Positions 5,557 to 27,490 of a DNA stretch of 27,490 bases are shown here, one piece after another. Positions within the stretch are counted from its first letter, which is position 1; every line of letters begins with the position of its first letter. The stretch comes from a virus. Position numbers and translations under genes: made by a program. Below the pieces are notes generated by a model. That model searched no databases and was not told the origin of the DNA. It saw nothing but the letters and a program-made list of their open reading frames with translations. The stretch spans positions 1 to 27,490 of the IMG/VR virus record IMGVR_UViG_3300040815_000681; one strand, 5' to 3'.

Positions 5557-7200
5557 ATGGCCTTTGTTAAAACTCACCTACCGTGTCCTGATTGCGGTGG
5601 CTCAGACCCGTTGGCGCTAAACGAAGACGGGTCTTCTTATTGTTTTAGTTGTACAACACATACACCAGCGAAGGAGAAAGTAACAGACTTTAAAACTTAT
5701 CAGAGGAACAGCACCTTGCACTCAAATGATGGTGGAGAGTTTTACCCTTTAACGGATCGTGGTATCCGCTTAGAGACAGCAAAAAAGTACGGAGTGCGTT
5801 CAGTCAAAAACTCTAGAGGAGAGATTGCCGAACACGCTTATCCTTATTACATTAACAACGAAGCAGTTGCTTCAAAGGTTCGAGGTCAAGATAAAAACTT
5901 TTATTGGAAGGGCACAAACAAAGGCGTAGGTCTTTTTGGCCAACAAGCCTTTCAATCAGGCGGCAAGTATATAACAATCGTTGAAGGCGAATGCGATGCG
6001 ATGGCTGCCTACGAATTGCTAGGATCTAAGTGGCCTGTAGTTTCTATTGTTAATGGTGCGCAGTCAGCAGACAAGTGTGTTAAAGAAAACCTAGAGTTTA
6101 TTGAATCGTTTGATACTGTAGTAATTAATTTTGACAACGACAAGCAAGGCGCTGAAGCCGCTAAGAAAGTTGCAAGACTTCTTATGCCCGGCAAAGCTAA
6201 GATAATGTCATTGCCTGTTGATTACAAAGATCCGAACGATATGCTTCGCCAAGGTAAACACAGCCAGTATGTCCAAGCGTGGTGGGACTCTAAAACTTAT
6301 ACACCTTCTGGTGTGTTAAACGTTTCTGACCAAGCCGATCAGTATTTCTCACGAGAGAAAAAAGATTCTGTTCCTTATCCGTGGTCAGGTCTCAACAAGA
6401 AACTTGAAGGTCTTCGGCTGGGTGAGTTAGTTACACTGACGGGCGGTACTGGTCTTGGTAAAAGTTCTGTGACTCGTGAGCTTGAGCATTGGTTGATACG
6501 ACAAACAAAAGATAATGTTGGCATCATGGCCTTAGAAGAAAACTGGCGCAGAACAATTGATGGGATTATGTCGATTGAGATGGATGCTCGTTTACATCTT
6601 GATAGTGTTCGAGAACTTTTCAATGAAGAAGAGCTTCGAGCTGTACACCAAGAGATATTTGCAGGAGAAAACAAAGATCGTGTTTGGGTCTATGGACACC
6701 TTGGGATGAACGATCTTGATAGCGTCTTTAGTAAATTGCGATTTATGATTGTTGGGTGTGATTGCAAATGGATTGTTCTTGACCACCTTCACATGTTAAT
6801 TCTTTTGGCTCAAGAGCCAGACGAACGCAAAGCAATTGATACGATTATGCACAAGCTAAGAACTCTTGTTGAAGAAACAGGATGCGGTATGATTCTTGTT
6901 TCACACTTGCGAAGAGTCGATGGCAACCGAGGCCACGAGAACGGAATCGAAACTAGCCTTAGTCATTTGCGTGGTTCGCAGTCTATCGCTCAGTTATCTG
7001 ATTGCGTAATAAGCCTCGAAAGAAATCAACAATCAGACGATCCTTTAGAAGCCTCTACCTCTAAGGTTCGAGTTTTAAAGTCCAGATATACTGGTGATGT
7101 TGGAGTCGCATCACACTTGATTTATGAGAAAGATTCTGGTAGACTACGTGAAGTAGATATGTTTGATACTAACGACGATGAACTTGGAGAAGTTTTATGA
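5557..7200 (+). CDS. T7 gp4-like primase-helicase
   Basis: The 547-aa bifunctional replication enzyme has the full T7 gp4 order. The N-terminal zinc ribbon uses C10, C13, C29 and C32. The TOPRIM primase core has E143 in VEGECDAMAA and the D193/D195 pair in NFDNDKQG. The C-terminal RecA-like hexameric helicase has Walker A GGTGLGKS (K302), Walker B WIVLDHLHML and a later SHLRGSQSIAQLSD motif. It unwinds the fork using NTP and makes primers for the polymerase. Length is close to T7 gp4 (566 aa). GAGGAG precedes the ATG. Its stop overlaps the polymerase start by 4 bp, typical of a coupled replisome pair. Confidence 0.93.
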   Translation: MAFVKTHLPCPDCGGSDPLALNEDGSSYCFSCTTHTPAKEKVTDFKTYQRNSTLHSNDGGEFYPLTDRGIRLETAKKYGVRSVKNSRGEIAEHAYPYYINNEAVASKVRGQDKNFYWKGTNKGVGLFGQQAFQSGGKYITIVEGECDAMAAYELLGSKWPVVSIVNGAQSADKCVKENLEFIESFDTVVINFDNDKQGAEAAKKVARLLMPGKAKIMSLPVDYKDPNDMLRQGKHSQYVQAWWDSKTYTPSGVLNVSDQADQYFSREKKDSVPYPWSGLNKKLEGLRLGELVTLTGGTGLGKSSVTRELEHWLIRQTKDNVGIMALEENWRRTIDGIMSIEMDARLHLDSVRELFNEEELRAVHQEIFAGENKDRVWVYGHLGMNDLDSVFSKLRFMIVGCDCKWIVLDHLHMLILLAQEPDERKAIDTIMHKLRTLVEETGCGMILVSHLRRVDGNRGHENGIETSLSHLRGSQSIAQLSDCVISLERNQQSDDPLEASTSKVRVLKSRYTGDVGVASHLIYEKDSGRLREVDMFDTNDDELGEVL

Positions 7201-8957
7201 CAGCCTATGTCTTCGATATAGAAGCAGATGGTTTAGACCCTAGCGTAATCTTTTGTATTGTTGCGCTAGAGACTGAGACAGGTCGGATGCACTCATTCGG
7301 CCCAGATAAAATCAAAGAAGGAATAGAACTATTAAAGAACGCAGGAAAGCTAATAGGCCACAACATACTTGGTTATGATATGCCAGTGATTAAGAAGCTG
7401 CATGGTGTTGATCTTTCTATTGATAAAAAGATTGTTGATACTTTGGTGCTTAGCCGACTCTTTAATCCAACAAGAGAAGGCGGCCACGGCTTAGAAAGCT
7501 GGGGCTATAGGCTACGGCACAGGAAACTAGAGTTCAAAGAGTTTGAGCAGTTCACACCTGAGATGTTAGTCTACTGTGAGAACGATGTAAACTTAAACAA
7601 CAAAGTATATAAGCACTTAAAGATTGAAGCTCAAGGGTTTAGTGCAAAAAGTATTTCTTTAGAGCATGAAGTTTACAAAATCTTAAATGACCAACGCGAC
7701 AAAGGCTTCTTGTTAGATGTTAAAAGCGCCATGAAGCTAGTTGCTGAGTTATCTGAAAAGCTTTTAGATGCTGAAACACTTGTACAAAAAACATTTTTAC
7801 CTAAAGATTCTAGCATTAAGCTCTTGCCAACGTACACAAAAGCTGGTAAAATATCTAAGATGTGTAGCGTAGAAGGCTCTAACAAAAAAGTAAGATTATC
7901 AGATGAAGAATATAATCTGATGGTTAAGACCGAATCACCTATGATTAGATCAGACGAAATTCCTTTTAACCTTGGTTCTCGTAAACAGATAGGCGAGTAT
8001 CTTATTGAGTTTGGTTGGAAGCCAACAAAGCACACACCAACAGGTCAGCCCATCGTAGATGAAAAGACTTTGAGCCAGATCGAAAACATACCCGAAGCTA
8101 AAACAATCGCTCAATACTTAATGCTGCAAAAACGACTAGCGCAAGTTAACTCTTGGTTAGAGCAAGCAGATCAGAACGACGATAGAGTCCGAGGGTATGT
8201 TAATACTAACGGCGCTGTAACAGGGCGCATGACCCACAGCAGTCCTAACATGGCTCAAGTTCCTAGCACAAACAGTCCTTATGGGGCTGAGTGCAGACGC
8301 TGTTGGACAGTAGCAAAAGACCACAAACTTGTAGGTATTGATGCCAGTGGTCTTGAGCTTAGAATGTTAGCACACTACATGAACGATGAGGCATACACTT
8401 ATGAACTTCTCAACGGAGACATACACACATCTAACCAAAACCTTGCAGGACTTGAATCAAGAAATCAGGCGAAGACTTTCATCTATGCACTCTTATACGG
8501 AGCAGGAGATGCAAAGCTTGGATCAGTGGTTGGTGGAAACGCAAAAGATGGTACACGACTTAGAGAACGTTTCTTCGATAATCTCCCTGCATTTAAAACT
8601 CTTAAAGACAGAGTTGCAAGAGCGTCTAAGAAAGGATATCTAAAAGGTTTAGATGGTCGAAAGCTGTTTGTTAGATCAGAGCATTCAGCCTTAAACACTT
8701 TGTTGCAGGGTGCAGGAGCTATCGTAATGAAAGAGGCGCTAGTAATCTTAAACGAATATCTAAATGCTGAAGGCATCTATGATTGTTTTGTGGCTAACGT
8801 CCACGACGAATGGCAGATAGAAATAAGAGCTGATCTTGCAGATCGTGTTGGGATACTAGGCGTTAAGGCAATTGAGCAAGCAGGAAGAAACTTAGATCTT
8901 AAATGTGAATTAACTGGAGAATATAATGTCGGTGACAACTGGGCGGAAACGCACTAA
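7197..8957 (+). CDS. Family A DNA polymerase, T7-like
   Basis: The 586-aa replicative polymerase carries a 3'-5' proofreading domain: Exo I VFDIEADGLD, Exo II GHNILGYDMPV, Exo III YCENDVNLN. The C-terminal polymerase domain has motif A GIDASGLELR (D382), motif B AKTFIYALLYGAG and motif C NVHDEW (D537). The residue equivalent to E. coli Pol I F762 is Tyr430, as in T7. In surveys of viral polymerases, Tyr at this site is linked to fast virulent phages. It is shorter than T7 gp5 (704 aa) and has no DnaJ-like cysteine insert. Its start overlaps the primase-helicase stop; its 3' end overlaps a small gene by 32 bp. Confidence 0.94.
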   Translation: MTAYVFDIEADGLDPSVIFCIVALETETGRMHSFGPDKIKEGIELLKNAGKLIGHNILGYDMPVIKKLHGVDLSIDKKIVDTLVLSRLFNPTREGGHGLESWGYRLRHRKLEFKEFEQFTPEMLVYCENDVNLNNKVYKHLKIEAQGFSAKSISLEHEVYKILNDQRDKGFLLDVKSAMKLVAELSEKLLDAETLVQKTFLPKDSSIKLLPTYTKAGKISKMCSVEGSNKKVRLSDEEYNLMVKTESPMIRSDEIPFNLGSRKQIGEYLIEFGWKPTKHTPTGQPIVDEKTLSQIENIPEAKTIAQYLMLQKRLAQVNSWLEQADQNDDRVRGYVNTNGAVTGRMTHSSPNMAQVPSTNSPYGAECRRCWTVAKDHKLVGIDASGLELRMLAHYMNDEAYTYELLNGDIHTSNQNLAGLESRNQAKTFIYALLYGAGDAKLGSVVGGNAKDGTRLRERFFDNLPAFKTLKDRVARASKKGYLKGLDGRKLFVRSEHSALNTLLQGAGAIVMKEALVILNEYLNAEGIYDCFVANVHDEWQIEIRADLADRVGILGVKAIEQAGRNLDLKCELTGEYNVGDNWAETH

Positions 8958-11643: not shown

Positions 11644-13542
11644 ATGGACAGTTATCAGGAATACATTCACAAATCACGCTATGCACGTTACATCCCTGAA
11701 GAACAACGACGAGAGAACTGGGACGAAACAGCCCGACGTTATTGTGATTACTTTAAAGACCGAGGCCAGTTAACAGGCAAGGACTATGACGAGGTTTATA
11801 ATGCAATATTAAACCTAGAAGTCATGCCTAGCATGAGAGCGCTAATGACCGCAGGAGCCGCATTAGATCGCGACAATGTTGCAGGTTTTAATTGTAGTTA
11901 TATGCCTATAGATCACCCTCGTGCTTTTGACGAGATGATGTATATACTTATGTGCGGTACAGGCGTTGGCTTCTCAGTAGAGCGCCAATACATTACTAAA
12001 TTACCTACAGTATCGGAGGATTTCCATGCAACAGAAACAACAATCAGCGTCATCGACAGCAAGATCGGATGGGCAAAGGCTTATCGAGAACTTATCAGCT
12101 TACTTTACAGCGGTCAGCTCCCGTCTTGGGATGTCTCCAAGGTCAGACCAGCAGGAGCAACTCTTAAAACATTTGGAGGAAGAGCTAGCGGCCCTGAACC
12201 TCTCGTTGACCTCTTCAAATTTACAGTCGAAGTGTTCAAGAAAGCTGCAGGACGTAAACTTAGTAGTCTTGAATGCCATGATCTCTGCTGCAAAATCGCT
12301 CAGATTGTGGTTGTCGGAGGAGTCAGACGCTCAGCCCTCATCAGTTTATCCAACCTCACAGACGACAGAATCCGCAGAGCCAAACACGGCCAGTGGTGGG
12401 TAGAAGAACCTCAGCGTGGGCTGGCTAACAACTCTGCATGTTATACAGAGAAGCCAGATTTCGAAGCATTTTTATCGGAGTGGACAAGTTTATATGAGTC
12501 AAGAAGTGGTGAGCGAGGTATCTTTAGTAGAGTGGCAAGTCAGAAACAGGCTGCGAAAAACGGTAGACGAGATAGTGACTGGGACTTTGGCACAAATCCT
12601 TGCTCGGAAATTATCCTCAGACCAAACCAATTTTGTAACCTGTCAGAAGTTGTTGTCCGGCCTGACGACACGTTCGACTCTTTGCGAAGGAAAGTACGAG
12701 TTGCAAGTATCCTTGGAACTCTCCAAGCTACCTTAACAGACTTCCGATATCTTCGTAAAGTATGGAGACAGAACACAGAAGAAGAAGCTTTGTTGGGCGT
12801 AAGCTTAACCGGAATCTTAGATCATCCTGTGTTGTCTGGCAAAGTAACAACAGGTACTTTCTTTGACCACCCAAATCAGCCAGACTTGGCAAAGACCTTA
12901 GAGACTTTAAAGAATGAATCTATTAACACGAATAAAAAATGGGCTGCTAAGTTGGGTATTAACCAGTCTGCTGCTATTACATGTGTTAAACCCTCTGGAA
13001 CTGTTTCGCAGTTGGTTGATTCAGCGTCCGGCATACATGGTAGATTTGCTACACATTATATTCGTCGTGTTAGGGCTGATGCTCGTGATCCGCTTTGTGG
13101 TGTTCTAGAGGCTGCCGGAGTTCCGGTAGAGATGGACAATCTATCACCCACAACAAAGGTATTTTCTTTTGTTAAGAAGGCTCCGGCTAATGCTGTTATG
13201 GCTTCAGACCAAACAGGACTTGAACAGCTTGAACTTTGGACAATGTATCAGGAGCATTGGTGTGAACATAAACCAAGTATCACAGTCTATTATCGCGACT
13301 CTGAGTTTCTTTCTATTGGTAATTGGCTTTACAATAACTTTGATGATGTATCTGGCGTTAGCTTCTTGCCTTACTCTAATCACAGTTATGAGCAAGCACC
13401 CTACGAAGAGATCACAAAAGAACAATACGATGAGTTAGTTAAACAGATGCCCGAGACTGTTGATTGGGACATCAACGAAGCAACCGACTTGACTGAAGGT
13501 TCTCAAGAGCTAGCGTGTGTAGGTGGAGCTTGTGAGCTATGA
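11644..13542 (+). CDS. nrdJ: Class II (B12-dependent) ribonucleoside-triphosphate reductase
   Basis: The 632-aa enzyme matches the monomeric adenosylcobalamin-dependent RTPR type. Its radical cysteine is C320 in TNPCSEIIL, with E322 two residues on and the redox partner C331 eleven residues on, the same spacing as C408/C419 of the Lactobacillus enzyme. The other redox cysteine is C84 in GFNCSYMP. The C-terminal shuttle pair is C625/C630 in ACVGGACEL at the very end. It converts rNTPs to dNTPs for phage replication and needs cobalamin from the host or medium, but not oxygen. No separate small subunit is expected. It overlaps the next gene by 4 bp. Confidence 0.92.
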   Translation: MDSYQEYIHKSRYARYIPEEQRRENWDETARRYCDYFKDRGQLTGKDYDEVYNAILNLEVMPSMRALMTAGAALDRDNVAGFNCSYMPIDHPRAFDEMMYILMCGTGVGFSVERQYITKLPTVSEDFHATETTISVIDSKIGWAKAYRELISLLYSGQLPSWDVSKVRPAGATLKTFGGRASGPEPLVDLFKFTVEVFKKAAGRKLSSLECHDLCCKIAQIVVVGGVRRSALISLSNLTDDRIRRAKHGQWWVEEPQRGLANNSACYTEKPDFEAFLSEWTSLYESRSGERGIFSRVASQKQAAKNGRRDSDWDFGTNPCSEIILRPNQFCNLSEVVVRPDDTFDSLRRKVRVASILGTLQATLTDFRYLRKVWRQNTEEEALLGVSLTGILDHPVLSGKVTTGTFFDHPNQPDLAKTLETLKNESINTNKKWAAKLGINQSAAITCVKPSGTVSQLVDSASGIHGRFATHYIRRVRADARDPLCGVLEAAGVPVEMDNLSPTTKVFSFVKKAPANAVMASDQTGLEQLELWTMYQEHWCEHKPSITVYYRDSEFLSIGNWLYNNFDDVSGVSFLPYSNHSYEQAPYEEITKEQYDELVKQMPETVDWDINEATDLTEGSQELACVGGACEL

Positions 13543-14970: not shown

Positions 14971-15312
14971 TTACATTTTATTGTTTAGATCTTGGACGCT
15001 TTTATACGTCACTAACCCACCCTTAGACTTTCGATCTCTTAAAATATTTTTTTGTTTTGCATCGTACTGAACATCGCCGCTTGCTACAGTCTTCCCTTTT
15101 TTGTTTGGGCCTACTTTATTTGATTTAGATTGTGGCGGCCCTTTAACAGAAGATTTTAAATGCTCTGGAATTGTTTTACCTGTTGTCATTTTAGACACTA
15201 AGTTTGCGCCCGAGTATGCAGCTCCAGCCGGGTTGCGGTTAATGGCTGCACTAGCTAAACCAACAACAGGATTACTTGAAAGGTTCTGTATAGCCTTAAA
15301 TGTTTTTTTCAT
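14971..15312 (-). CDS. Hypothetical protein, 113 aa
   Basis: The N-terminal half (SSNPVVGLASAAINRNPAGA) is Ala/Gly/Asn-rich and mildly hydrophobic. The C-terminal half is basic and probably disordered (KSNKVGPNKKGKTVASGD, then DRKSKGGLVTYKSVQD). A GGAGAGAG ribosome binding site precedes the ATG. It lies between lysozyme-side small basic proteins and the small membrane protein. I do not recognise the family; a minor virion or DNA-associated role is only a guess from charge and context. Confidence 0.68.
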   Translation of the reverse strand: MKKTFKAIQNLSSNPVVGLASAAINRNPAGAAYSGANLVSKMTTGKTIPEHLKSSVKGPPQSKSNKVGPNKKGKTVASGDVQYDAKQKNILRDRKSKGGLVTYKSVQDLNNKM

Positions 15313-15615: not shown

Positions 15616-16033
15616 AAGCCTCTCCTGTTCTTATCATCTCTGCAACTTCTTTAGCTCGCTCGCCTACTTGATTAGCCCACTTGCTATCAAGAAATTCTTT
15701 GGCGGCTTCTTTATACTTTTTATTTTTCATAGCATCTAAAGCTTTAACAAATTTACGTAACTTAGTCAACCCTAGATTAAAACAAAGATTAATCATTGCT
15801 TCGCGCCGAACCTCGTCTAAGTCTTTGAACCACTCAAAGGCTCCGTCAAGCTCCTCAATGCAACGCTGAACGTCATTTATTAGAAGATACTCTACCTCAT
15901 CGGGGGATAATCCTAAGCCCACAGAGCGGTTTATACAGCGTCCTACGCCTATAGTTTCATAGCCGAGATGATCTCTATAGACATAGTATCGAACACCTTC
16001 ATGACGTTTTAAAGTTTCTATTAGTCTTTTCAC
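15605..16033 (-). CDS. GH24 lysozyme (T4-type endolysin)
   Basis: The 142-aa protein has the T4 lysozyme catalytic layout: E12 in LKRHEGVRYYVYRD, D21 at the end of that motif and T27 in YETIGVG. The helical C-terminal domain follows (MINLCFNLGLTKLRKF). It hydrolyses the peptidoglycan glycan strand during lysis or entry. No signal peptide or SAR anchor is present, so release needs a holin. The start is GTG, overlapping the stop of the upstream large gene as GTGA. Lying within the virion arm, it could also be a virion-borne muramidase. Confidence 0.9.
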   Translation of the reverse strand: MKRLIETLKRHEGVRYYVYRDHLGYETIGVGRCINRSVGLGLSPDEVEYLLINDVQRCIEELDGAFEWFKDLDEVRREAMINLCFNLGLTKLRKFVKALDAMKNKKYKEAAKEFLDSKWANQVGERAKEVAEMIRTGEAYAS

Positions 16034-18987
16034 TTGCTAACATCTCTAGCTTGTACAACATATCCACCTTCCATAAACTTAGGCAATCCTTTTTGAATAT
16101 CCTTTTTCATTTCGGGCGTTAATTCCATTGCCCAGATTTCAAATTCTCTGCCGCTAGGTGTTTTTACTGTTGTTAGTTCTACATCTGCGCCATACTTTTT
16201 ACCAAAGTCTTTTAAGAATTTGGGATAGATTTCATCATAATATTTTACAAACCCTTTAGCTTTGTCGCCTTCGTACTCATAGCGTTTTGCTTGTATCTCA
16301 GATGTTGTTAAACCAATTTTATCAAAGTCTTGATTTACTGCATCAATTAAAGATTTGCGCAACGCTAATTTATACCAGTCTTTTTTATACGGAACATCAG
16401 GAACACCATAAAGAACTTGATTTTCTAATTTAGCAATATCTTTATAATCTTTATCTGATCTTTGTTTTATTAGTCTACTTAAACTTTCTTCATTTTTATT
16501 TATTAATTTTTTAAAGTTGTTAGAATATTCTTGAACAACTTTAAGTACATCTTCATCCTCTGCAGATGTAATAAGTTTTTCAAACCTGTTTAATTCTTTA
16601 AATCTGTTTTTACTAAAATACAAATCTGTCATAGAGTCTATAACGAAGTCTCTTTCAGTTTTATCTATTTTTTCTCCGGGTTCAAGAGAATTTTTTAATC
16701 GTTGTTTAACTTCATCGACTACTTCTTCAGCACTAAAGAACTGATCTACATCATCAAAAATATCTTCTATAGCATTAAAGTATTCGCTTAAGTTAAGGTC
16801 TACTACTAAATAATTTATATGATCTGCTATTCTTTGAGAGTGAATTTCAAATCCATCAAGAGCATCTTCTAAATCATCAGCATCTTGAACATCTAAAAAC
16901 GGCTTAATAACATTACTTGTTTCTTTATTTTGTCTTATGTTGTCTAAAGAATAATAAACGTCTGGGCCTAGTTTTTCTACAAGCTTTTCATATTCTTTAC
17001 TTGCTTTTTTGCTATAATAGCCATACTTTCTACCTGCTTGGTGTAGATCAGACTGTACTTCTTCAATAACATACACTTGTTTATTTGTGTTGCTTTCAGG
17101 CAAAGCTGTTACGCGAGTGTGGGCCATTGTTCCTTCAGTAAAATGCGCTGGCTGGTAGTTGCTTCCTTTTCTACCTTCAGGAACTTTAAAAATATTTGCG
17201 TATGTTTGACCTGCTGTATTTATTTCGTATGGTTCTTCATCTAATAAACTGTATTCTTGAAAAGCATTATCGGCTCGTTCTGTTTGTAAATTATAACGAT
17301 TAGAAGATAAAAAGTCTTGAACCTCATCCAAACTTACTTTTTGTTTGTCTTTAAAAGCATCTATAAATCCTGTAGCCTGAAGCTCTTCTTCTTTAACGCC
17401 CTCGCCTTTCTTAATTGCATTAATAAATGCTTGACCAGTTCCAGACTTTTGTTGGATGTTTAACGCTGCTTTTTCTGCTGGACTAAACAGCCCATCAACA
17501 GCAGGAGCAAAAAGTTTAAAAGCGCCTTTAGCTACTCCGCCAATCGAATAAGCTGTACGAGGATCTTCAAAATCTAAAGCTTTACCGTATGTCGACTTAA
17601 ACTGATAAGGGTTAAAAAGAATATAAGATTTATTTGCTTCGCCTTTAAAGGTGCTTTCAACTTCATTTGTATATTCAATAGCATCAAAGCCTGCACGATT
17701 TAAAAGTCGTTGAACATCCGCAGTCAATGAAGCATCAAGAGCTTCGTTTTTATATTTGTGAAATCTTGAAGACACAAGCGGCGGAGCATCTATTGTTTTT
17801 TGCTCTATCTGAAAACCTACGTTTGTTAAATCATCAAATTGTTTTTGAAAATCTGGCGGAAGGTTTTTACTTTGTGTTTCAATAGCATTTAAAAACTCCC
17901 CGGCCATTGTTAACATTTCTGAAGCCTTCCAAGACATAGGCTCGCGCTTTAAACGTAAAGGATTTCTTACTCTTGCATATCCTTTAGTAATTGCAAAGTT
18001 CATGTTATTTTCTTTTGCTTTTTTCATTAAGAATTCAAGCATATCACGCCTTTCAATCTGTTGGCCTTTTGCCCAATCTGAAGGCATATCCTTAAACTCA
18101 GCAGCAATAATTGTATGTGCGTGACCTTGAGTGCCTGTGTGAACTCCCATTTCTCTTGGAAACAAAAACGCAGGATCAAAATCAAAATCATGGAAATCTT
18201 TATAAGCTCTAAAAATTGGAACTTCAATAACAGAGCCACTTATTCCTTCTTCAAGATTTGCTTCTCTAGTTGCTTGATCTACAGCTTCTTCAGGAAGAGT
18301 TTCATCTTTTAAAGATATTTTAGAAAATAATTTTTTAACAATAGCAGATTCTTCAGGCTCTAATTCTTCTACCATTTTAACAACATAATCACGCGCTAGT
18401 TTTCTTGCCCCTTCTTTTGTTATAGCACTTTTACTTGTTCTTCCTCCAATAGCTATACCATCATTTAAAATTTTTGTAGTGTAAAAGTCTACTAAAGGTG
18501 CATATTTTTTATCTAGAATTTTATCAGGATCAACATCAACTTTAATTTTATTATATTCGTTTCTTAATGTATTTAAAATATTTTGTATTTGATTAGAAAG
18601 CCCACCATCATCATCTAATATTTGATTTCTTAATTCTTGAAGATATGCAAAATCATCTATTTCTTTTTCAGTATAACCCCTAGCTCTGCTGAAAGTTTCC
18701 CAATCTCCTTCTTGGTAATTCTTCCACTCTTTCATTTGTTGGAGTTCTTCTAAAGACTTGTCAATTTTTTCTCGTAAAAATACTTTTGTTTCTAATTCAG
18801 CTATGTCATCTATAATTGTATTAAATTCATCATCTATTGGAACATCTACATTAGAGCTAGAAACTGGTTTGTTTGTAACATTATCTTTAGCATTTAATAT
18901 TTGAGTTGCATACGGTCGCAAAAAATCATCATCAAACAAATTATCTGTTGATGCCTTTAAAGCTTTTAGAATTACATTTAATGTCAT
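16030..18987 (-). CDS. Large internal virion protein with ADP-ribosyltransferase-like domain
   Basis: The 985-aa multi-domain protein resembles phage polyvalent and internal virion proteins. Residues about 249-465 look like an ART-PolyVal-type domain: VPIFRAYKDFHDFDF, then GVHTGTQGHAHT, RAGFDAIEYTNE and SYILFNPYQFKS. Residues about 612-659 hold a second conserved segment (MAHTRVTALP, QVYVIEEVQSDLHQAGRKYG). About 864-985 is a third (DWYKLALRKSLIDAV, LTTSEIQAKRYEYEG). Such proteins are often injected with the DNA. The usual first catalytic His position reads Arg-Ala-Tyr here, so activity is uncertain. A perfect promoter sits 60 nt or so upstream of its ATG transcript start. Confidence 0.7.
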   Translation of the reverse strand: MTLNVILKALKASTDNLFDDDFLRPYATQILNAKDNVTNKPVSSSNVDVPIDDEFNTIIDDIAELETKVFLREKIDKSLEELQQMKEWKNYQEGDWETFSRARGYTEKEIDDFAYLQELRNQILDDDGGLSNQIQNILNTLRNEYNKIKVDVDPDKILDKKYAPLVDFYTTKILNDGIAIGGRTSKSAITKEGARKLARDYVVKMVEELEPEESAIVKKLFSKISLKDETLPEEAVDQATREANLEEGISGSVIEVPIFRAYKDFHDFDFDPAFLFPREMGVHTGTQGHAHTIIAAEFKDMPSDWAKGQQIERRDMLEFLMKKAKENNMNFAITKGYARVRNPLRLKREPMSWKASEMLTMAGEFLNAIETQSKNLPPDFQKQFDDLTNVGFQIEQKTIDAPPLVSSRFHKYKNEALDASLTADVQRLLNRAGFDAIEYTNEVESTFKGEANKSYILFNPYQFKSTYGKALDFEDPRTAYSIGGVAKGAFKLFAPAVDGLFSPAEKAALNIQQKSGTGQAFINAIKKGEGVKEEELQATGFIDAFKDKQKVSLDEVQDFLSSNRYNLQTERADNAFQEYSLLDEEPYEINTAGQTYANIFKVPEGRKGSNYQPAHFTEGTMAHTRVTALPESNTNKQVYVIEEVQSDLHQAGRKYGYYSKKASKEYEKLVEKLGPDVYYSLDNIRQNKETSNVIKPFLDVQDADDLEDALDGFEIHSQRIADHINYLVVDLNLSEYFNAIEDIFDDVDQFFSAEEVVDEVKQRLKNSLEPGEKIDKTERDFVIDSMTDLYFSKNRFKELNRFEKLITSAEDEDVLKVVQEYSNNFKKLINKNEESLSRLIKQRSDKDYKDIAKLENQVLYGVPDVPYKKDWYKLALRKSLIDAVNQDFDKIGLTTSEIQAKRYEYEGDKAKGFVKYYDEIYPKFLKDFGKKYGADVELTTVKTPSGREFEIWAMELTPEMKKDIQKGLPKFMEGGYVVQARDVSK

Positions 18988-18994
18988 TTAATAA

Positions 18995-21900
18995 TTACCC
19001 CAATAATGTTTTAATTGGATCTTCTTCATCTATAAACGCACTGCCTGCTTGTATATTATAGGGTATGCCTGTCATTTTGTCAATGCGTTCATCAGGTTCT
19101 TTTGGAGCATTAGGTATATCTACTTCACCGCCTTTAGCAAAAAGATCTCTACCAACATCCATTGGTTTATCTGGAATACCTACATCTTTTAATTGTCGGT
19201 CTATATTTTTTAGTCCTTTACGATATTCATCCATCGTTTCTTTGCCAAGCAAAGTAGTTCCTGCGGCATAGCCCGGAACTTTAGTACCTAATGTAGACGC
19301 TGGACGATTATAAAAATTAATAACGTCTGAAGGTAAAGGTCCAAATGGCATCAACAAATACGAACTAACTTTTCCAGAATACATTGCGGTTTTCTGTGCG
19401 CGTTCAAGCTGATCGAATAACAAACCATTTCCGCCCCAACGTTTAACTGCTGCAAGCCTTGCTTCCGCAGGTGTTGTATTCTCTTCACTTTGACCACGAG
19501 ACCTAATATAATTTAAATACCTTTGAGTCTCTGTCATAATAATACCAGCAGTTAAAACTTTTGCGGCATTAGCACTTGGGTTTCTTATCATTTGCTTTGC
19601 GGCTCCTTTTAGTATAGTATTACTAAAGGCCGCAGGATAAGACAACAAGTTAAACAACATACTTGTTTTGGGGTTCGAATATAATCTTGGTTTTATGCTT
19701 GACAAAGCTGTAGGTTGTAGTATAATATCATTTGTATACCTAGCCGCTCCGTCTTTTACTTTTGAATAAAACTCATCATTATTTTTGGCTCCTGCTTTAA
19801 ACCACTTAATGCCTTCTTCAAGATCAATGCCAAGCTCTGCAAGCTCATCCATTTTGTTTTGAATGCGTCTAGTCATTTTAGCATTGCCGTGTTCAGCTAT
19901 AGCCTGAATGTTGTCTTCAATAAGACGCTTTCCTGTTGCATAACTTGTTAACTGTGCAAACTTAGTCCATTGATCTAGAAAATTTAAACGGAAAAATTTA
20001 TTGCTGGCCTTTTGCAGATTATCGTTGATTAAATCATCGCCTGCTAAACGGTTGCCTACTTGAGAAAGACCATGATCTATTGCAATACTATGCTCATAAA
20101 GTTCGCGCCAAGCTTCTTGAGCAGTTAAGCCATGTTTAGACATAAGATCTGAGTGCATGTCTTTTGTTATTCTTTTAAAAGAAATTTCAGCGGCTTCACC
20201 AAAACCTTTAACGCTGTTAACTACTCCGGCTTTAGAAATATTAAGCAGCACTTCTGATAAACTTGAAAGAGTTGCAAGCGGAAGAGTAGCCACACGAGTA
20301 ACAAAGTTGTAACCGTCTACTGTATTTTGTAAGCCGTCTCCAAAACGATCAAGGTTTTCACTTGTAGCTAAGCGATATGTTTGTAGCATTCTTTCTCGCT
20401 CAGATTTTGGAAGAGCCTTGCCTGTTGCCCTAAGATGATCTTCGGCTATTTGATTAATCCAACGATTTGTAAATTCATTTTCATTACGAACACCGAATAC
20501 TCTTTTTTTAGCTAGTGATTTACCTGCTTGATAAATGTAAGTATAAAATGTAGAATTAACATCATTATTTAAAAACTCTTCAAAAAGCGCATCGTTTTCA
20601 ATGTTTTCAAATTTACGTTTAGCCGAGAAAAAATGTCCGTGGGTTCCAGAGTCTAGTTGATTTTCTTTATCTAGCATTTCTTTTACAATACGATCTGCTT
20701 CAATTAAATCTGCTGCTTCGTTTTCTTGAACTAATAGAGTTTTAAATTTATCAGAATTCTTTTCAATAGCTTTGCGATTCCACATACGAGGCACATAGTC
20801 TTCAACTTTATGTGCAATAATGCCTGCCTCATAAAGACGGTCGCCTAGCTCTTCATAAATCTGTTTAATCTTTAAACCTGTAGTATCTATTGTTTTGTTG
20901 CCTGTCATTCCCCCACGTATAGCTTTACTAAGATCCGCATTTACATTATCTTTTAATGTGCCTTTTAGTTTGTTAAAAGCTATAGGCTCTACAATATTTA
21001 AAAAGTCTACGTAATATTTACCTGTAATTTTTCGCTGTGCTTCTGCAAAATCTTCAGCTATAATTTTTTGTGGACCTCTCCAGTTCTTTGCAAACTCTCT
21101 TGAAAATTTTTGTTGAAGAACTTTAGCGGCTCCTGAATAAGCAGTATAAGGAGAATAAACACCAGAAGCTTTACCGCCAAACATGCCTGATGTAGTATTA
21201 GCAAACATCCGATAAAGTTTATTCATAAATACAGAACTTACTTTATCTTTAGATTCTTGTTGCGCAGCAGCTATAGCCGCATCAATTAATTCATCTTGTG
21301 TCGCTTGACCACCACCAAGATCATTAACAAGCTTTGAAAACTGCGCATCTGCAGCAAGATCTTCAGGATCTGGAGTTATGCCTTGAAACTTTCCTGAAAA
21401 GTCTTCAATCATTTTTGGAGCGTACAACGGAATATTATCTACAACAATTTCTGTTCCGGGCTGAGGAGCAGTATCTGCTTTATCGCTTGCAGCATCAAAC
21501 GAGCTTTTCGCACGTTTAGAATAGTAGTCATAGTCAGAGTCAAAACCTGCATCTTCAAAAGCTTCTTCAGTGTTTTGTTTATTTATTTTTGAAGCGCCCA
21601 GTTTTAAAAGTTTAGCAAGTCCAGCACCTGCGCCAGCACCTACAAGCGTAGAAAGAAACACCTCATTTTCGTCTACTTCTTCGCGCTTGTCTAATGAGAT
21701 GTCTAGTTGTTGTTGTGTGTAGTTATCTAATCCTGTGAAAGATCCAGCATAAATAGCCGCACCGCCGACTGTAGTTGGATTCATAATAGTCGAAGCTTTT
21801 CCTAAAGCTTTAGCTAAAGCAAGCCTTGCGCCTTGTTGAGCAACCGCTGTTCCTGCGGCAGACTGACCGCCACTAAAAATACCAGCAACTACACTTGCAA

Positions 21901-22396
21901 TAGTTTCTGGGTTGAATACAACGTCTGTGCCATAATCTGCAAAAGCACTAAAGAAATCACCAACCCCACCAATTTCGGCTTTATCAAATCTTTCTTGAAG
22001 ATAACGATAAGCTTCTTTTACATCTTCAGGAGCGTCTTCCATTGCCATTGCTTTGTTTAGCTTAGCGCCAATACGTACAACATCATCACGAAGAAACTCT
22101 GCTGGATCAGTATCTCTAGCGCTTGTAGAAGGATCAATAAGCGTAGACATAAAGGTTTGATTGTTGCCAAGATAATCGGTTAACAACTCAAACTTTTGAA
22201 TTACTTCTGGATCTTCTTTAAATTCAGAAACAGTTTCTCCATAAATATTTCTATAAGAAAAATCATCAGCCGTTAAGTCTTGAAAATATTTATTTGTTTC
22301 TGTATACTCAGAAGGTATTTTAATTTCTTGAGGTTTAGGCGTTTGACTTTCTGGAAAATTTACGTCTGTGAATAAATCGTGTCTATAGTTAGCCAT
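18995..22396 (-). CDS. Internal virion / ejection protein, 1133 aa
   Basis: The largest complete gene in the window has no enzymatic motif I can identify. It is helical, with Gly/Ala-rich hydrophobic stretches near residues 165-260 (VAGIFSGGQSAAGTAVAQ, then FLSTLVGAGAGAGLAKLLKL) that could insert in membranes. It has the size and composition of T7 gp16-class ejection proteins (1318 aa in T7), but the lytic transglycosylase motif is not seen. The C-terminus (KMTGIPYNIQAGSAF, then DPIKTLLG) resembles tails of other marine phage virion proteins as I recall. It lies between two other large virion genes. Two perfect sigma-70 consensus sites lie inside it. Confidence 0.65.
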   Translation of the reverse strand: MANYRHDLFTDVNFPESQTPKPQEIKIPSEYTETNKYFQDLTADDFSYRNIYGETVSEFKEDPEVIQKFELLTDYLGNNQTFMSTLIDPSTSARDTDPAEFLRDDVVRIGAKLNKAMAMEDAPEDVKEAYRYLQERFDKAEIGGVGDFFSAFADYGTDVVFNPETIASVVAGIFSGGQSAAGTAVAQQGARLALAKALGKASTIMNPTTVGGAAIYAGSFTGLDNYTQQQLDISLDKREEVDENEVFLSTLVGAGAGAGLAKLLKLGASKINKQNTEEAFEDAGFDSDYDYYSKRAKSSFDAASDKADTAPQPGTEIVVDNIPLYAPKMIEDFSGKFQGITPDPEDLAADAQFSKLVNDLGGGQATQDELIDAAIAAAQQESKDKVSSVFMNKLYRMFANTTSGMFGGKASGVYSPYTAYSGAAKVLQQKFSREFAKNWRGPQKIIAEDFAEAQRKITGKYYVDFLNIVEPIAFNKLKGTLKDNVNADLSKAIRGGMTGNKTIDTTGLKIKQIYEELGDRLYEAGIIAHKVEDYVPRMWNRKAIEKNSDKFKTLLVQENEAADLIEADRIVKEMLDKENQLDSGTHGHFFSAKRKFENIENDALFEEFLNNDVNSTFYTYIYQAGKSLAKKRVFGVRNENEFTNRWINQIAEDHLRATGKALPKSERERMLQTYRLATSENLDRFGDGLQNTVDGYNFVTRVATLPLATLSSLSEVLLNISKAGVVNSVKGFGEAAEISFKRITKDMHSDLMSKHGLTAQEAWRELYEHSIAIDHGLSQVGNRLAGDDLINDNLQKASNKFFRLNFLDQWTKFAQLTSYATGKRLIEDNIQAIAEHGNAKMTRRIQNKMDELAELGIDLEEGIKWFKAGAKNNDEFYSKVKDGAARYTNDIILQPTALSSIKPRLYSNPKTSMLFNLLSYPAAFSNTILKGAAKQMIRNPSANAAKVLTAGIIMTETQRYLNYIRSRGQSEENTTPAEARLAAVKRWGGNGLLFDQLERAQKTAMYSGKVSSYLLMPFGPLPSDVINFYNRPASTLGTKVPGYAAGTTLLGKETMDEYRKGLKNIDRQLKDVGIPDKPMDVGRDLFAKGGEVDIPNAPKEPDERIDKMTGIPYNIQAGSAFIDEEDPIKTLLG
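19055..19083 (-). promoter_or_regulatory. Perfect-consensus sigma-70 promoter, leftward
   Basis: On the minus strand TTGACA (19083-19078), a 17-nt spacer and TATAAT (19060-19055) match consensus at all twelve positions with optimal spacing. It lies in the 3' end of the 1133-aa gene. The transcript would start near 19048, about 60 nt before the ATG of the ART-domain protein, and would also carry lysozyme and the small basic genes. Confidence 0.72.
19699..19726 (+). promoter_or_regulatory. Perfect-hexamer promoter antisense to the virion operon
   Basis: TTGACA (19699-19704) and TATAAT (19721-19726) are separated by 16 nt on the plus strand, opposite to transcription of the surrounding virion gene. 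All twelve hexamer bases match consensus; the spacer is one short of optimal. No rightward gene follows, so any product would be an antisense RNA over the 5' two thirds of the 1133-aa gene. Confidence 0.5.
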
Positions 22397-22408: not shown

Positions 22409-23998
22409 TTAAAGTGAACGATATGTAGGTAAACGCTCAGACATTGGTTTGTCTTTTTCAAGTTTTACTTGTGGAGCATAAGCCATTTTATATCTATCGA
22501 GAATACTTGTTTGTGCTTGACCCATTGGAGATGTAAAAATATCATAGCTACTCATCCAATCAAAATAATTTTTCTTAGACATATCAGACATGTTTGTAAA
22601 AATACGCCCCATTTCTGTTTGGCCAGATTCTGATAATGTTTGAGCCATAATTTTAGTTCTGATATTTTCTAAAGTTTTTTTACTGTAAGGTATACGCTCA
22701 CCAGACTCACTTTGTTTTTCTAGCTTTTCTAAAGCAGCTAAAGCCAAAAAAGGACTATACACATCTTTTGTTAAATACAAATCTTTTCCGGGCTGTATTT
22801 CTAAATTTTCAAAAGGATTCAAAGCCGCAGAAGTATCAATCATTTTATTTTGAATGTTGATTGCTTGCATTTCAGAAGCAAGTTGAATTGCTACATCGTC
22901 TTCAAAATTAAATCGTTTTTGTAAGGCTTTAGAACCTACAAGAATCTCACCATAAACTTGTTTTTTAGCCGCAGAGATTCTATCTTTATCTTCGCTTTTA
23001 CCTACCAATACTTCTTCAGTATATTTTTTAAAAACGTTTAAAGTATCTTTAGAGACATTTTGCATAACATCCATTTGAGCTTGGTCAATAACTGGATCTT
23101 GAATACTTTGTATTCTTCTTTTAGTTAATCCAAATTCTCCAGTTGTTGTGTTTACTGGGTTCCCATTTAAATCATAAAAACCAAGAGCTTTTCCAGTAAC
23201 ACCATCAGTTAATAACTGCCCAGTGATTTTTTTGTCATTGCCAAATTCATCAGATATAGTAATTTCTTTTGTCTCTATTTTAGGCGGAGTTCTTTCCCAA
23301 TCAATAGTATCTTTATAATGTTGAACAAGATCTAACGCTGGCTTAGGCCCAACGTTTTCTTGTCGAAGAGTTTGATAGACTGAAGCTTTTTCTTTTAAAA
23401 ATTCTGAGTTTGATTTATCTAAAGCATTTGTAGCATTGCCGCCAGAAAACAAACCGCCAATTCCTTTGGTTATGTATTCTGCTACAGTCCTTGGTTGTTG
23501 TTTTAATAAAGCTTTATCGTATGCCATTGGATCAGCACCAGCGCCTTGAATAAACTTCGAAGCAGAATCATAACGAGTTTTAAGATTTTCTTCTGCTTCT
23601 TTAGCTCGCTTCATGGCTTCAGTATGGATTACTTGATTTATTTGAGTTTGTGAAGTTCCTGCTGGAGCCGCTAATTTTACTGCTTGTGTGATAGGCGCAA
23701 GCGCTTGGTCATACAAATATTGAAACCCATTCGACAAATAGTTATTATATTCTGTTACATCTTTCTCAGCTAAAGAATAGTTTGTTTTAAAGTTCACTCG
23801 TTGCTGAATAGTTTCTTCATTATTCATAAAATTTTGAACTTTAGATTCAAGAATTTTATTACCTACTACTCCAGCGAGCTGAACACCTAAACCAAGCAGT
23901 GCCTGTTTTTCTTCTTCTTTTCGAAGACGTTTAGCTTCTCTTTGATTTCTTTTACGAACATCAGCTAAAAGAGATTCACCAAATTGTTGAATAGCCAT
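22409..23998 (-). CDS. Virion-associated protein, 529 aa
   Basis: This protein is unrecognised by motif. The N-terminal 60 residues form a basic amphipathic helix followed by a hydrophobic patch (QALLGLGVQLAGVVGNKILE). The rest is largely helical and polar, with Gln/Lys-rich segments. Its position between the 1133-aa ejection-type protein and smaller structural genes corresponds to the internal core protein position in T7-like phages (gp14-gp16 region), so it is probably an internal or connector-associated virion protein. Its ATG shares one base with the upstream stop (TAATG), with GAGG upstream. Confidence 0.6.
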   Translation of the reverse strand: MAIQQFGESLLADVRKRNQREAKRLRKEEEKQALLGLGVQLAGVVGNKILESKVQNFMNNEETIQQRVNFKTNYSLAEKDVTEYNNYLSNGFQYLYDQALAPITQAVKLAAPAGTSQTQINQVIHTEAMKRAKEAEENLKTRYDSASKFIQGAGADPMAYDKALLKQQPRTVAEYITKGIGGLFSGGNATNALDKSNSEFLKEKASVYQTLRQENVGPKPALDLVQHYKDTIDWERTPPKIETKEITISDEFGNDKKITGQLLTDGVTGKALGFYDLNGNPVNTTTGEFGLTKRRIQSIQDPVIDQAQMDVMQNVSKDTLNVFKKYTEEVLVGKSEDKDRISAAKKQVYGEILVGSKALQKRFNFEDDVAIQLASEMQAINIQNKMIDTSAALNPFENLEIQPGKDLYLTKDVYSPFLALAALEKLEKQSESGERIPYSKKTLENIRTKIMAQTLSESGQTEMGRIFTNMSDMSKKNYFDWMSSYDIFTSPMGQAQTSILDRYKMAYAPQVKLEKDKPMSERLPTYRSL

Positions 23999-24615
23999 TA
24001 CTGCATTTCCTCTTCAGTAGGCGCTGGAGGCGCTAATAAACTACCAGTATCCTGAGCAGGAACTTCTTCTTCTTGTTGTTGTTCTTGTGCCATCAAGCTG
24101 TCATCAACTGGGAGTTGTTCTATTGTTTGAACCATTTCAGGTGTAAGCGTTTGTGCTGGAACTTTGCCAGATTTTAAAAACTGTTTCATTCCTTGAATTT
24201 TTTCTTCTTCAAACTTTGTTCCAAGAAGAGCAACTTCATCTGCTTCGTCTTCATCTTCACCACGATAAATAACAGGATCAATTCCTGCGCGTTCGGCTAA
24301 AGCTAAAAGCATATAAGCTACAGGCTCAGCCAACATAAGCATAAGGTCTGGAGACCACTTGCCTTCTGTAAAGCCTGTAAAAAGAAGTGTTCTTACAATA
24401 TCCATAACAGGCATATCGTCAGCCATTAATTGCAGAATTTGAACATAAGATTCTTCTTCAATTAAGTTTCCAAAAATAAATTCAGAAGCTTCGTGGACTG
24501 AAGTAAACTGTGGAGGCTTTTCATAAGGCTGAGGATTATCAGGATCTGTTGTAAGACCTTGGCCCGGAATAGGCCGACCCATCTGTGTAACTACTTTTAC
24601 GTATTCATCATTCAT
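23998..24615 (-). CDS. Virion-associated acidic protein, 205 aa
   Basis: The N-terminus (VKVVTQMGRPIPGQGLTTDP) and middle (FIFGNLIEEESYVQILQLMA, then LLFTGFTEGKWSPDLMLMLA) resemble a conserved structural protein I have seen in marine phage genomes. The C-terminal 40 residues are acidic, Gln- and Pro-rich and probably disordered (QEQQQEEEVPAQD). It is helical in the middle, with hydrophobic stretches that are not long enough for clear membrane helices. It lies between two virion genes with 3-nt and 1-nt junctions. The specific role is not known. Confidence 0.6.
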   Translation of the reverse strand: MNDEYVKVVTQMGRPIPGQGLTTDPDNPQPYEKPPQFTSVHEASEFIFGNLIEEESYVQILQLMADDMPVMDIVRTLLFTGFTEGKWSPDLMLMLAEPVAYMLLALAERAGIDPVIYRGEDEDEADEVALLGTKFEEEKIQGMKQFLKSGKVPAQTLTPEMVQTIEQLPVDDSLMAQEQQQEEEVPAQDTGSLLAPPAPTEEEMQ

Positions 24616-24618
24616 GTT

Positions 24619-25800
24619 TTAAAAGTTCCCCATTAAAAATGGTGTGCCGTATCCACGCTGTTGCATTGCTTGGTTGTATACATTTGCATTAAAACCATAA
24701 GGACTCATAGCCATAGATTCTGTATTGTTAGCTAAGTATGCCACAGCATCAAACGACTGTTGTTGTTGGCCGTACATTCCAATATCTGTAGTGCTAGACA
24801 TATCTATAGTTGGCACATAGCCTGAAAATTGACTAATGTTTGTATCTGGCATTAAATCAGCGGCTTTTTGTATAGTACCCGAAACTGCACCAGTTACTCC
24901 TTTTATAGTCGCTGTACTAAAAACATCAGAAACTTTTTCGCCTGTCCATTCTGTTTTAGTTTTTTCCCACGCTTCGCCTAAAGCTTTAGCAGGGTCTTTA
25001 AAAACAGAAGTTCCTGTTGCTTCAGCATAAGGCGTTACATTTTTAGTTGGAACTCCAGAAGTTTGCGGCATTCCAAGAAGACTGTCAGTTGCTTGAGCAG
25101 GTTTATAACCTACTTCTGGAATTTCATAGTTTAGTTGTTCAACAAGCCCTTTATCAACAACTTGTTCGGGAGCCAAAGTTTCTGGAATAGAATTTAAAAT
25201 TTGATCTCTTTCAGTTTCTGCAAGACTTTCAGGAATTGATTCTAAATATTGCTCTCTTGTCATTCCTAGTGTTTGTTCTTGAATTGCCTGTACTGCATAT
25301 TTATTTGTTGCAGTTAAAGTGTTTGAACTAAACAAATCTCCAACACTGGCTTTTACACCGCTAACTGCATCTGTAAAGCCTTTACCGATATCTCCAGTAA
25401 AACCTTTTTCAGCTAGGTATTTTCCAAAAGTAGAATCCGATAGCCCAAGTTTATCTAAACCAGCCGTAGCTACTTCACCCAATACTTTTGTAACACCTTC
25501 AGTAATTGATTTAAACGTGCTACCTACTTTTGTTCCAACATTAACTGCAGCATTTAAAACTTGACCAGCGCCTTTTACAATAGCGCCAGTTACACCGCCC
25601 ATTGTTGTATTTATCATAGACCCCGCAAGTTTTCCAAACATAGAACCTATACCGGGTAATAAAAGGCTAAGACCTATTTGGCCAATAATGCCTATCTTGC
25701 CCATGAACTTGCCAAACTTGGCGGCAACCTTTTTAAGTCCTCGGCCAATTTTACGAAAGACTTTTCCAATACCTTTAAATACTTTGCTAAAAAATCCCAT
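24619..25800 (-). CDS. Structural protein with membrane-active N-terminus, 393 aa
   Basis: The first 35 residues are a basic amphipathic region (MGFFSKVFKGIGKVFRKIGR) followed by a hydrophobic segment (IGIIGQIGLSLLLPGIGSMF). This layout resembles pore-forming or membrane-disrupting peptides. Weak Gly/Ala/Val repeats follow (NAAVNVGTKVGSTFKSITEG). The C-terminal 60 residues are Gln/Asn/Tyr-rich (YNQAMQQRGYGTPFLMGNF). Similar proteins starting MGFFSKVFKGIGK occur among marine phage structural proteins as I recall. Ejection across the host membrane is a plausible role, inferred from composition and neighbours. Confidence 0.62.
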   Translation of the reverse strand: MGFFSKVFKGIGKVFRKIGRGLKKVAAKFGKFMGKIGIIGQIGLSLLLPGIGSMFGKLAGSMINTTMGGVTGAIVKGAGQVLNAAVNVGTKVGSTFKSITEGVTKVLGEVATAGLDKLGLSDSTFGKYLAEKGFTGDIGKGFTDAVSGVKASVGDLFSSNTLTATNKYAVQAIQEQTLGMTREQYLESIPESLAETERDQILNSIPETLAPEQVVDKGLVEQLNYEIPEVGYKPAQATDSLLGMPQTSGVPTKNVTPYAEATGTSVFKDPAKALGEAWEKTKTEWTGEKVSDVFSTATIKGVTGAVSGTIQKAADLMPDTNISQFSGYVPTIDMSSTTDIGMYGQQQQSFDAVAYLANNTESMAMSPYGFNANVYNQAMQQRGYGTPFLMGNF

Positions 25801-25805
25801 TGGAT

Positions 25806-27490
25806 TTAACCCCCAAGTAAAGTTTTAATTGTGTTAACTAATGTTGTTGTACTTGTCGGCGAGCCTTTAGATGCCGCCGCTTCGTTGCCAATTGCTGTAG
25901 CATAAAGCTGTGTCAATCTTGTTTGTTCGTTTTCATAAGACTGTCGAACATATGCGGCTTCATCGCGTATCTGTTGCCATACTTGCTGTTGTTCCATCAT
26001 TGTCAGACCATAAGCGTTTTGAACGTTTTGCTGGTTAGCTGCGTTCTGAGCCGCAGTATTGATGGTGTTTGTTTGTCTGCGCCAAGCTACATCAGCCTGT
26101 TCAATTGCTTGAGCATTTGCAGTATTAAATTGCTCTCGCTGTTGTTCAAGCTGAGTATTAAACTGATTAATGTTTGTTTCCATTTGAGCGTTAGCCATTG
26201 AGACTTGTGTAGCATTTTGTGCGTTTTGCGCCTCCATTCGGTTTTGTTCAGCAGTATTAAACTGAGCCATTGCATTTGTTTGAGATGCGTTGAACTGTGA
26301 AACTTGAGACGCTAAGCTCGCATTAAATTGATTAGCTTGTTGTTCATTAGCAGCGTTAAATTGTCGAGCTGCATTAGTAGCCGCCTGATTGCTTAGCATT
26401 GTTTGCTGAGCTTGTTGTTGGTTTAACACAGCCATTTGCTGCTCATTATTTAAGTTTGTTAAGTCCATTTGCAAAAAGGCTTGAGCATTCTGCATTTCAA
26501 TGCGAGTCTGAGCATCGAGGTTTGCCATATCCATAGACGCAAGTGCTGTAGCTCTTTGAATTACAGACTGCTGACGAGCATCAAAATCTTTCATAGTCAT
26601 TGTTTGCATAAACTGACTATTAGCAAGAGCCGTTTGTTGATTAACATCAAACTGTTTCATGTCTAAATTAGCATTAATCTGTGCATTAAACATTGCAGAT
26701 TCTTGCTGATTTGAAAGATTTGCTAATCCCATTTGTTGTGCAAGTTGTGCGTTAACCTGTGCGGCTTGCATACGCTTTTCATAGACTTGCAATTCTTTAA
26801 CGTTTTCAGCCGACATAGACTCAGAGTCTGCTTGGTTCTTAGCCGTTAAATTTGCAAGGCTTACTTTTTCAGCGGCAGAAAGTTTAGCCATTTCTGCATT
26901 TTGACGGAGCTGTGCGTTTTGCGACATAACCTGAACAGCAGTAGTTAACTCCGTCAATCTAAAACGATTAGCTTCTGTAAAGTTTGCGGAATCTGTTGCG
27001 GCTCTTTCAGAAAGATTTGCAAGCTCTATCTGTTGCTCAGCATTCATGTTAGCCATGTCCATCTGCTGAGCTAAGTTTGCATTAGTCTTTTTGAAATCTA
27101 CAAGGTTTTGAAGATTAGTTAATCGCTCTTGGTTTGTAGCCGTCATAGTATCACGGGATGCTACGTTTTGTTCGGTTAAGTTTGCTAACTCAACTTGAAG
27201 GCTAGTCGAAAGATTAGCTTTTTCCATATCTTGCTGAAGCTCAGCCTGACGCATAGTACGATTAACTTCAGCATTATAAGAAGCTAAACGAGTTTGTTGT
27301 TCGGCACTAAGATTTTGTGCCTCTGCTTGATTAAGAGCTTCAAGGTTTGCAAGATCCATTCTTGTACCAGCATCAAGATTTGCAAGAGCTGTTTGTTGAC
27401 GCTGTGCAGATTCTTGTGAAGCTTTTTGCTGAGCGTTCTGAAGATTCTGCATACGCACATCTTGTTGCTGAGCGGCAGTTGTTAGTGTTG
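25806..27490 (-). CDS. Hendecad-repeat virion protein (N-terminus beyond window)
   Basis: The frame stays open to the right edge, so the true start is outside the window; a GTG at 27458 is merely the first possible start inside. The visible 561 residues consist of consecutive 11-residue repeats, with consensus close to hydrophobic-x-L/M-A-N-L-x-A-x-x-Q, then a 66-residue non-repeat tail ending VNTIKTLLGG. Ala, Asn, Gln, Met and Thr dominate; Cys and Pro are almost absent from the repeats. Eleven-residue periodicity favours right-handed coiled coils or long amphipathic helices. Its place upstream of the virion genes suggests a fibre, core or scaffold component. Confidence 0.72.
   Translation of the reverse strand, partial: TLTTAAQQQDVRMQNLQNAQQKASQESAQRQQTALANLDAGTRMDLANLEALNQAEAQNLSAEQQTRLASYNAEVNRTMRQAELQQDMEKANLSTSLQVELANLTEQNVASRDTMTATNQERLTNLQNLVDFKKTNANLAQQMDMANMNAEQQIELANLSERAATDSANFTEANRFRLTELTTAVQVMSQNAQLRQNAEMAKLSAAEKVSLANLTAKNQADSESMSAENVKELQVYEKRMQAAQVNAQLAQQMGLANLSNQQESAMFNAQINANLDMKQFDVNQQTALANSQFMQTMTMKDFDARQQSVIQRATALASMDMANLDAQTRIEMQNAQAFLQMDLTNLNNEQQMAVLNQQQAQQTMLSNQAATNAARQFNAANEQQANQFNASLASQVSQFNASQTNAMAQFNTAEQNRMEAQNAQNATQVSMANAQMETNINQFNTQLEQQREQFNTANAQAIEQADVAWRRQTNTINTAAQNAANQQNVQNAYGLTMMEQQQVWQQIRDEAAYVRQSYENEQTRLTQLYATAIGNEAAASKGSPTSTTTLVNTIKTLLGG
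26007..27458 (-). repeat. Tandem hendecad repeats with 55-residue super-repeat
   Basis: Cutting the protein into 11-residue blocks from codon 27458 keeps register for 44 blocks without an indel. Blocks 3-7, 8-12, 13-17 and 18-22 align with one another as four 55-residue (165-nt) super-repeats; for example the blocks MDLANLEALNQ, VELANLTEQNV, IELANLSERAA and VSLANLTAKNQ fall at the same place. Later blocks keep the 11-residue register with a different core, QFNA/QFNT at a fixed position. Confidence 0.8.

Follow-up and report, generated by a model that had tools for sequence, protein, structure and literature searches.

An 11-residue-repeat protein encoded beside putative ejection genes of HMO-2011-like marine podoviruses varies in length mostly by 110-residue steps

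The window, by which we mean the whole 27,490-nucleotide stretch analysed here (positions 1 to 27,490 of IMG/VR virus record IMGVR_UViG_3300040815_000681), ends in an open frame on the minus strand (25806-27488) that the contig end truncates on its 5' side. The frame codes for the last 560 residues of a repeat protein, and several hundred N-terminal residues fall outside the record. The sequence-only reading had placed the gene at 26007-27458; these limits were wrong, as the frame runs off the contig and its true start lies upstream of the GTG at 27458. Its central observation, about 44 unbroken 11-residue repeats over about 484 residues, was borne out: 26007-27458 spans 484 codons, i.e. 44 repeats, and a register-aware Viterbi scan assigned residues 2-492 of the 560-residue frame to a single uninterrupted register of 44.6 hendecads. 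Identity autocorrelation revealed peaks at lags 11 (z 7.8), 22 (z 7.7), 33 (z 8.0) and 44 (z 7.4) and was strongest at lags 55 (z 9.6) and 110 (z 10.2), the maximum z among 500 shuffles being 4.5. The core positions had been described as small or hydrophobic, but the most constant repeat position is Asn (61% of 1772 repeats).

Scanning with unit profiles revealed that the four runs of five blocks noticed earlier are real 55-residue units, A (residues 10-64; 27297-27461), B (residues 65-119; 27132-27296), C (residues 120-174; 26967-27131) and D (residues 175-229; 26802-26966), all on the minus strand. They are followed on that strand and in the same register by units of diverged sequence (residues 230-449), namely E (residues 230-284; 26637-26801) and F, G and H (residues 285-449; 26142-26636), the last three being kept in the wider family including HMO-2011. 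The conserved part after the repeats (residues 450-560; 25809-26141, minus strand) carries a 'WRRQ' motif and is a predicted helix. Same-type units inside one protein are 29-89% identical at the protein level and 45-81% at the DNA level, and the repeat gene holds no DNA-level tandem repeats; the unit copies are therefore old and have been kept.

The genes downstream, also on the minus strand, resemble a podoviral internal-virion block in their order. Next to the repeat gene lies a gene for a 393-residue protein (24619-25800), syntenic in relatives, whose basic amphipathic N-terminus and hydrophobic Gly-rich stretch recall membrane-active ejection proteins and whose family yields weak tape-measure PHROG matches in 10 of 23 members. 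It is followed by genes for an acidic, conserved 205-residue protein (23998-24615), syntenic in nearly all relatives, a 529-residue protein in a gp15-like position by synteny (22409-23998), single family members of which match endolysin or tail injection transglycosylase PHROGs, and a 1133-residue protein in a gp16-like position (18995-22396) that matches PHROGs 7348, 6958 and 684 (endolysin / virion structural protein). Nearly all relatives show the same order after the repeat gene: a basic/hydrophobic protein, an acidic protein of ~200 residues, one of ~450-1100 residues and one of 1100-1900 residues with endolysin or virion-structural PHROG matches. In one relative (L013), genes for a tail protein, a virion structural protein, a tail fibre and a small product precede the repeat gene, and those for the hydrophobic, ~200-, ~500- and ~1500-residue proteins follow it. 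The layout is comparable to that of the podoviral internal-virion block (PMC8954989), and an internal virion protein D is annotated on maps of HMO-2011-type phages (PMC6918029). A comparison of the window neighbours with T7 gp14, gp15 and gp16 by hhalign, a weak test with single T7 sequences only, gave no similarity. On the basis of gene order, the repeat gene would be the first of the internal-virion (ejection) module of HMO-2011-like podoviruses, and the structural context proposed for it earlier gains support from its place in this block.

Elsewhere in the window, the polymerase (7197-8957) matches DNA_pol_A, and its translation has no CXXCXGXG, the motif of the partial DnaJ insert that defines the DNA polymerase of HMO-2011-type phages (PMC9038755). 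Since the polymerase lacks the DnaJ-like insert, yet the structural genes are HMO-2011-like, the genome is a mosaic. The replication block also encodes a ribonucleotide reductase (11644-13542) with a match to a B12-dependent (class II) insertion domain. Short motifs resembling K/R-x-GG-x-V lie near the C-termini of the structural-block proteins at 16030-18987, 18995-22396 and 14971-15312 (FMEGGYV, FAKGGEV, SKGGLV), and a similar one, MQKGGRM, lies near the N-terminus of relatives of the repeat protein.

By tblastn the family is present in 25 phage records, comprising HMO-2011, pelagiphages, roseophages CRP and more distant podoviruses that infect Vibrio, Aeromonas, Pseudoalteromonas and Rhizobium. 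Viral contigs contributed 47 loci in the first search and then at least 80, and one scan confirmed at least 590 members in marine viral contigs, in which the family is very common. Complete repeat proteins range from about 460 to 2020 residues; many relatives begin with a basic N-terminus (MSKKRQTRNSKK...), and a conserved segment, 'PxWAxxAV...RGLSxSxVGRDA', precedes the array. Searches of the repeat protein and its relatives against Pfam, PHROGs and NCBIfam gave no match, and a sequence search of the PDB with the repeat protein returned nothing meaningful. Our literature search found no paper on hendecads in this family and neither virion proteomics nor a mutant for any member. The family is thus common in marine viral contigs, yet unnamed in the libraries searched.

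To compare array lengths we used the distance between the N-terminal (PxWA...RGL) and C-terminal (WRRQ) motifs, both of which are conserved. In the first set, every anchored member had an anchor distance of 6 modulo 11 apart from phiM6 and RHph_N3_13, which are off by one residue, an offset located inside the N-terminal motif. Anchor distances in the window's clade were 336, 446, 556, 666, 776, 886, 996 and 1106, exact 110-residue steps, the exception being L010/L011 at 589. On 62 new distinct sequences that had not been used for finding the rule, the fit was 62/62 modulo 11 and 55/62 modulo 110, those off the latter having anchor distances of 325, 435 and 479; loci from bacterial assemblies gave 4/4 and 3/4, respectively. 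A tree built from the parts flanking the array implied at least 25 length changes, which recombination between phages prevents from all counting as independent inventions; the value modulo 110 was altered three times and that modulo 11 never. An odd number of extra 55-residue units occurred in no sequence measured. Between conserved flanking motifs, length is therefore constant modulo 11 in essentially all relatives, which is new here, and the array varies nearly always in steps of 110 residues. The earlier proposal of growth by duplicated units stands, but with a step of 330 bp (110 residues) in place of 165 bp (55 residues).

These steps can be read from the unit grammar, which in the long-array classes (anchor distance at least 556, except L010) is N1 N2 [A (BC)n D]m E F G H: steps of 110 residues are BC pairs and steps of 220 residues are ABCD blocks. 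The window's array runs from A to H in order, N1 N2 lying past its end, and the 336 and 446 classes have no clear B-C-D series. In two relatives the repeat gene is split at the N1/N2 border into two overlapping frames (L013, 9911-9920; L046, about 9870), at the same place with different frame offsets, as could arise by gene fission, frameshifting or sequencing error. Two explanations are compatible with a step of 110 and not 55 residues, namely pairing of units in the structure and a recombination spacing that is inherited. Once like-type units stand 110 or 220 residues apart, recombination between them would yield such steps only, and a mutational bias of this kind could produce the pattern, although the 336 to 446 to 556 steps are harder to account for in this way. 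Whatever its cause, the exact step is a strong natural experiment on protein assembly and predicts a structural period that can be checked by cryo-EM.

The all-helical make-up proposed for the protein was supported by its composition, with proline at 0.05% and glycine at 0.9% over about 1770 repeats family-wide. AlphaFold2 likewise predicted the whole window protein (monomer) as all helical, at low confidence (pLDDT 53), with a 158-residue helix in the C-terminal part and one helix break per 55 residues. Units A-D modelled as a monomer with 39 aligned blocks gave a mean pLDDT of 78 and a pTM of 0.62 (pLDDT about 69-85 in B, 83-94 in C, and 76-93 in D except its last residues), and here the helix is broken twice per unit, at offsets 28-30 and 47-52. 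Gly and Pro of natural units fall in or beside the predicted break offsets in 51 of 74 cases versus 15 expected, support that is not fully independent, since the alignment supplied to AlphaFold2 shares sequences with this set. The A-D model also agrees with the independently made public model of a homologue (Foldseek; TM 0.75, E 1e-16, 217 columns). Foldseek of this model in the PDB gave no significant match (best E 0.58), and VIA-align matched no solved fold, its best Z of 6.6 over 68 residues being at the level expected from common helical arrangements. A hairpin model with one ~50-residue helix per unit, drawn from the pLDDT 53 model, is weakened by the two helices per unit of the A-D model; because of these two helices the pair rule is left unexplained.

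The hydrophobic residues of the repeat form two faces and not one, with no power in the one-face 11/3 harmonic (0.00), and hydrophobicity autocorrelation at lags 3, 4 and 7 is flat or negative. Together with the broken A-D helices predicted by AlphaFold2 and the Gly/Pro residues at the breaks, this leaves the single continuous coiled-coil rod that the sequence-only reading had considered without support in units A-D; the single-faced form of its membrane-lying amphipathic helix fares no better. Between the two hydrophobic faces runs a Gln/Ser/Thr stripe, mostly uncharged and made up of phases 5 and 9, with most charges on the opposite side.

We propose, with somewhat less than even confidence, that the genome-ejection (internal virion protein) module of HMO-2011-like marine podoviruses includes the repeat protein as a structural part, one with a helical arm whose length can be adjusted. 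The repeat itself, the grammar of its units, the rule for its length and the surrounding gene order are observed; we infer its presence in the virion, a role in ejection and a spacer function; that the modules are helical is a prediction. The basic low-complexity N-terminus and the 'PxWAxxAV...RGLSxSxVGRDA' segment would come first, followed by an array made of all-helical 55-residue modules of five hendecads each, then by the conserved units E-H and the long C-terminal helix. The array would act as the repeat arm, its length set by the number of modules and changed by gain or loss of pairs (110 residues), and would keep the N-terminal end, presumably facing the head or the DNA, at a set distance from the C-terminal helix and from the ejection proteins whose genes follow immediately. 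Such spacing would match the apparatus to capsid or envelope geometry. A bolder version, which we regard as possible but rather doubtful, is a new helical-repeat fold in which 55-residue modules are usable only in pairs, a digital ruler that tunes an arm of the ejection machine by fixed 110-residue increments, each pair restoring assembly polarity or phase. The 110-residue step also gives a handle on DNA delivery by marine phages with short tails, SAR11 and Roseobacter phages among them.

A tube or conduit is possible, and one like that of phiX174 H is a serious rival, albeit an unlikely one in our estimate: hendecad helices of several copies would come together side by side in the envelope during ejection, making an alpha-helical tube whose lumen is lined by Gln and Asn. 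The phiX174 H tube is a decamer of hendecad/heptad helices with N, Q and R as the main residues facing its lumen (PMC7354561), and the uncharged stripe at phases 5 and 9 makes the wheel pattern of the repeat compatible with such a lining. When fitted to the repeat profile, the H hendecads keep to a single register and place Q at phases 5 and 9 (permutation P 0.008); like the Gln-rich face, this fit is suggestive but weak, and it draws on three H hendecads only. On the other hand, the A-D helix is broken in the AlphaFold2 model, and a straight helix of the window part alone would measure about 735 Å (1.5 Å per residue), that of L006 being much longer, which exceeds what an envelope needs.

We consider it quite unlikely that the protein is an external tail part (fibre shaft, needle or adaptor) whose length varies with the host surface. 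In HMO-2011-like genomes as well as in L013 the gene does directly follow those for tail fibres and lysis, and length variation among close relatives recalls fibre evolution; its conserved synteny is nonetheless with the internal-virion block and not with the variable fibres, library searches found no fibre-type domain, and the N-terminus is basic. That same N-terminus, found in many relatives, would suit an internal scaffold or DNA-organising core protein that binds DNA with its basic end and is not ejected, as would the helical repeat core, but this strikes us as improbable, the gene being distant from the scaffold/coat genes and adjoining ejection-type genes.

The repeat protein can be compared with several known systems. 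With right-handed hendecad coiled coils the window protein shares the unbroken 11-residue register, whereas their single hydrophobic a/d/e/h stripe is absent. Like the phiX174 DNA pilot protein H it is helical, Gln-rich and hendecad-containing, with a similar hendecad pattern; H, however, has three hendecads followed by heptads and forms a straight tube, whereas the repeat protein strings tens of hendecads into 55-residue modules and its neighbours are unrelated. Tape measure proteins of siphophages and myophages are also long and helical with variable repeat number, but the isolates of the present family are short-tailed, so that there is no long tail to measure, and the repeat protein has no tape-measure PHROG match. 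HMO-2011 ORF 25 (ADW08438) and its counterparts in pelagiphages HTVC103P/104P/115P, roseophages CRP, CHOED, MQM1, Slicky01 and phiM6 belong to the same family as the window protein, sharing the RGLS-type motif, the hendecad region, the C-terminal motif and the gene order; they are annotated as hypothetical, and one as 'huntingtin'. At anchor distances of 170-358, their arrays are shorter than those of most of the window's clade (325-1106), and ORF 25 itself (L049, 12505-14625) continues past the repeats with an additional C-terminal domain (CWVAREVYGEGDPRW...) that the window protein lacks. Finally, the gene layout of a T7-type ejection module, a late block with a hydrophobic protein, a ~500-residue protein and then one of >1000 residues with lytic or virion matches, is present here. 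What the neighbours share with T7 gp14, gp15 and gp16 (and with Schitoviridae DEV gp72/gp73) is their place in a late block whose genes grow in size, the product of the largest having endolysin/virion PHROG matches. T7 has no 55-residue modular repeat protein, and for this reason the repeat protein looks like an addition to the block.
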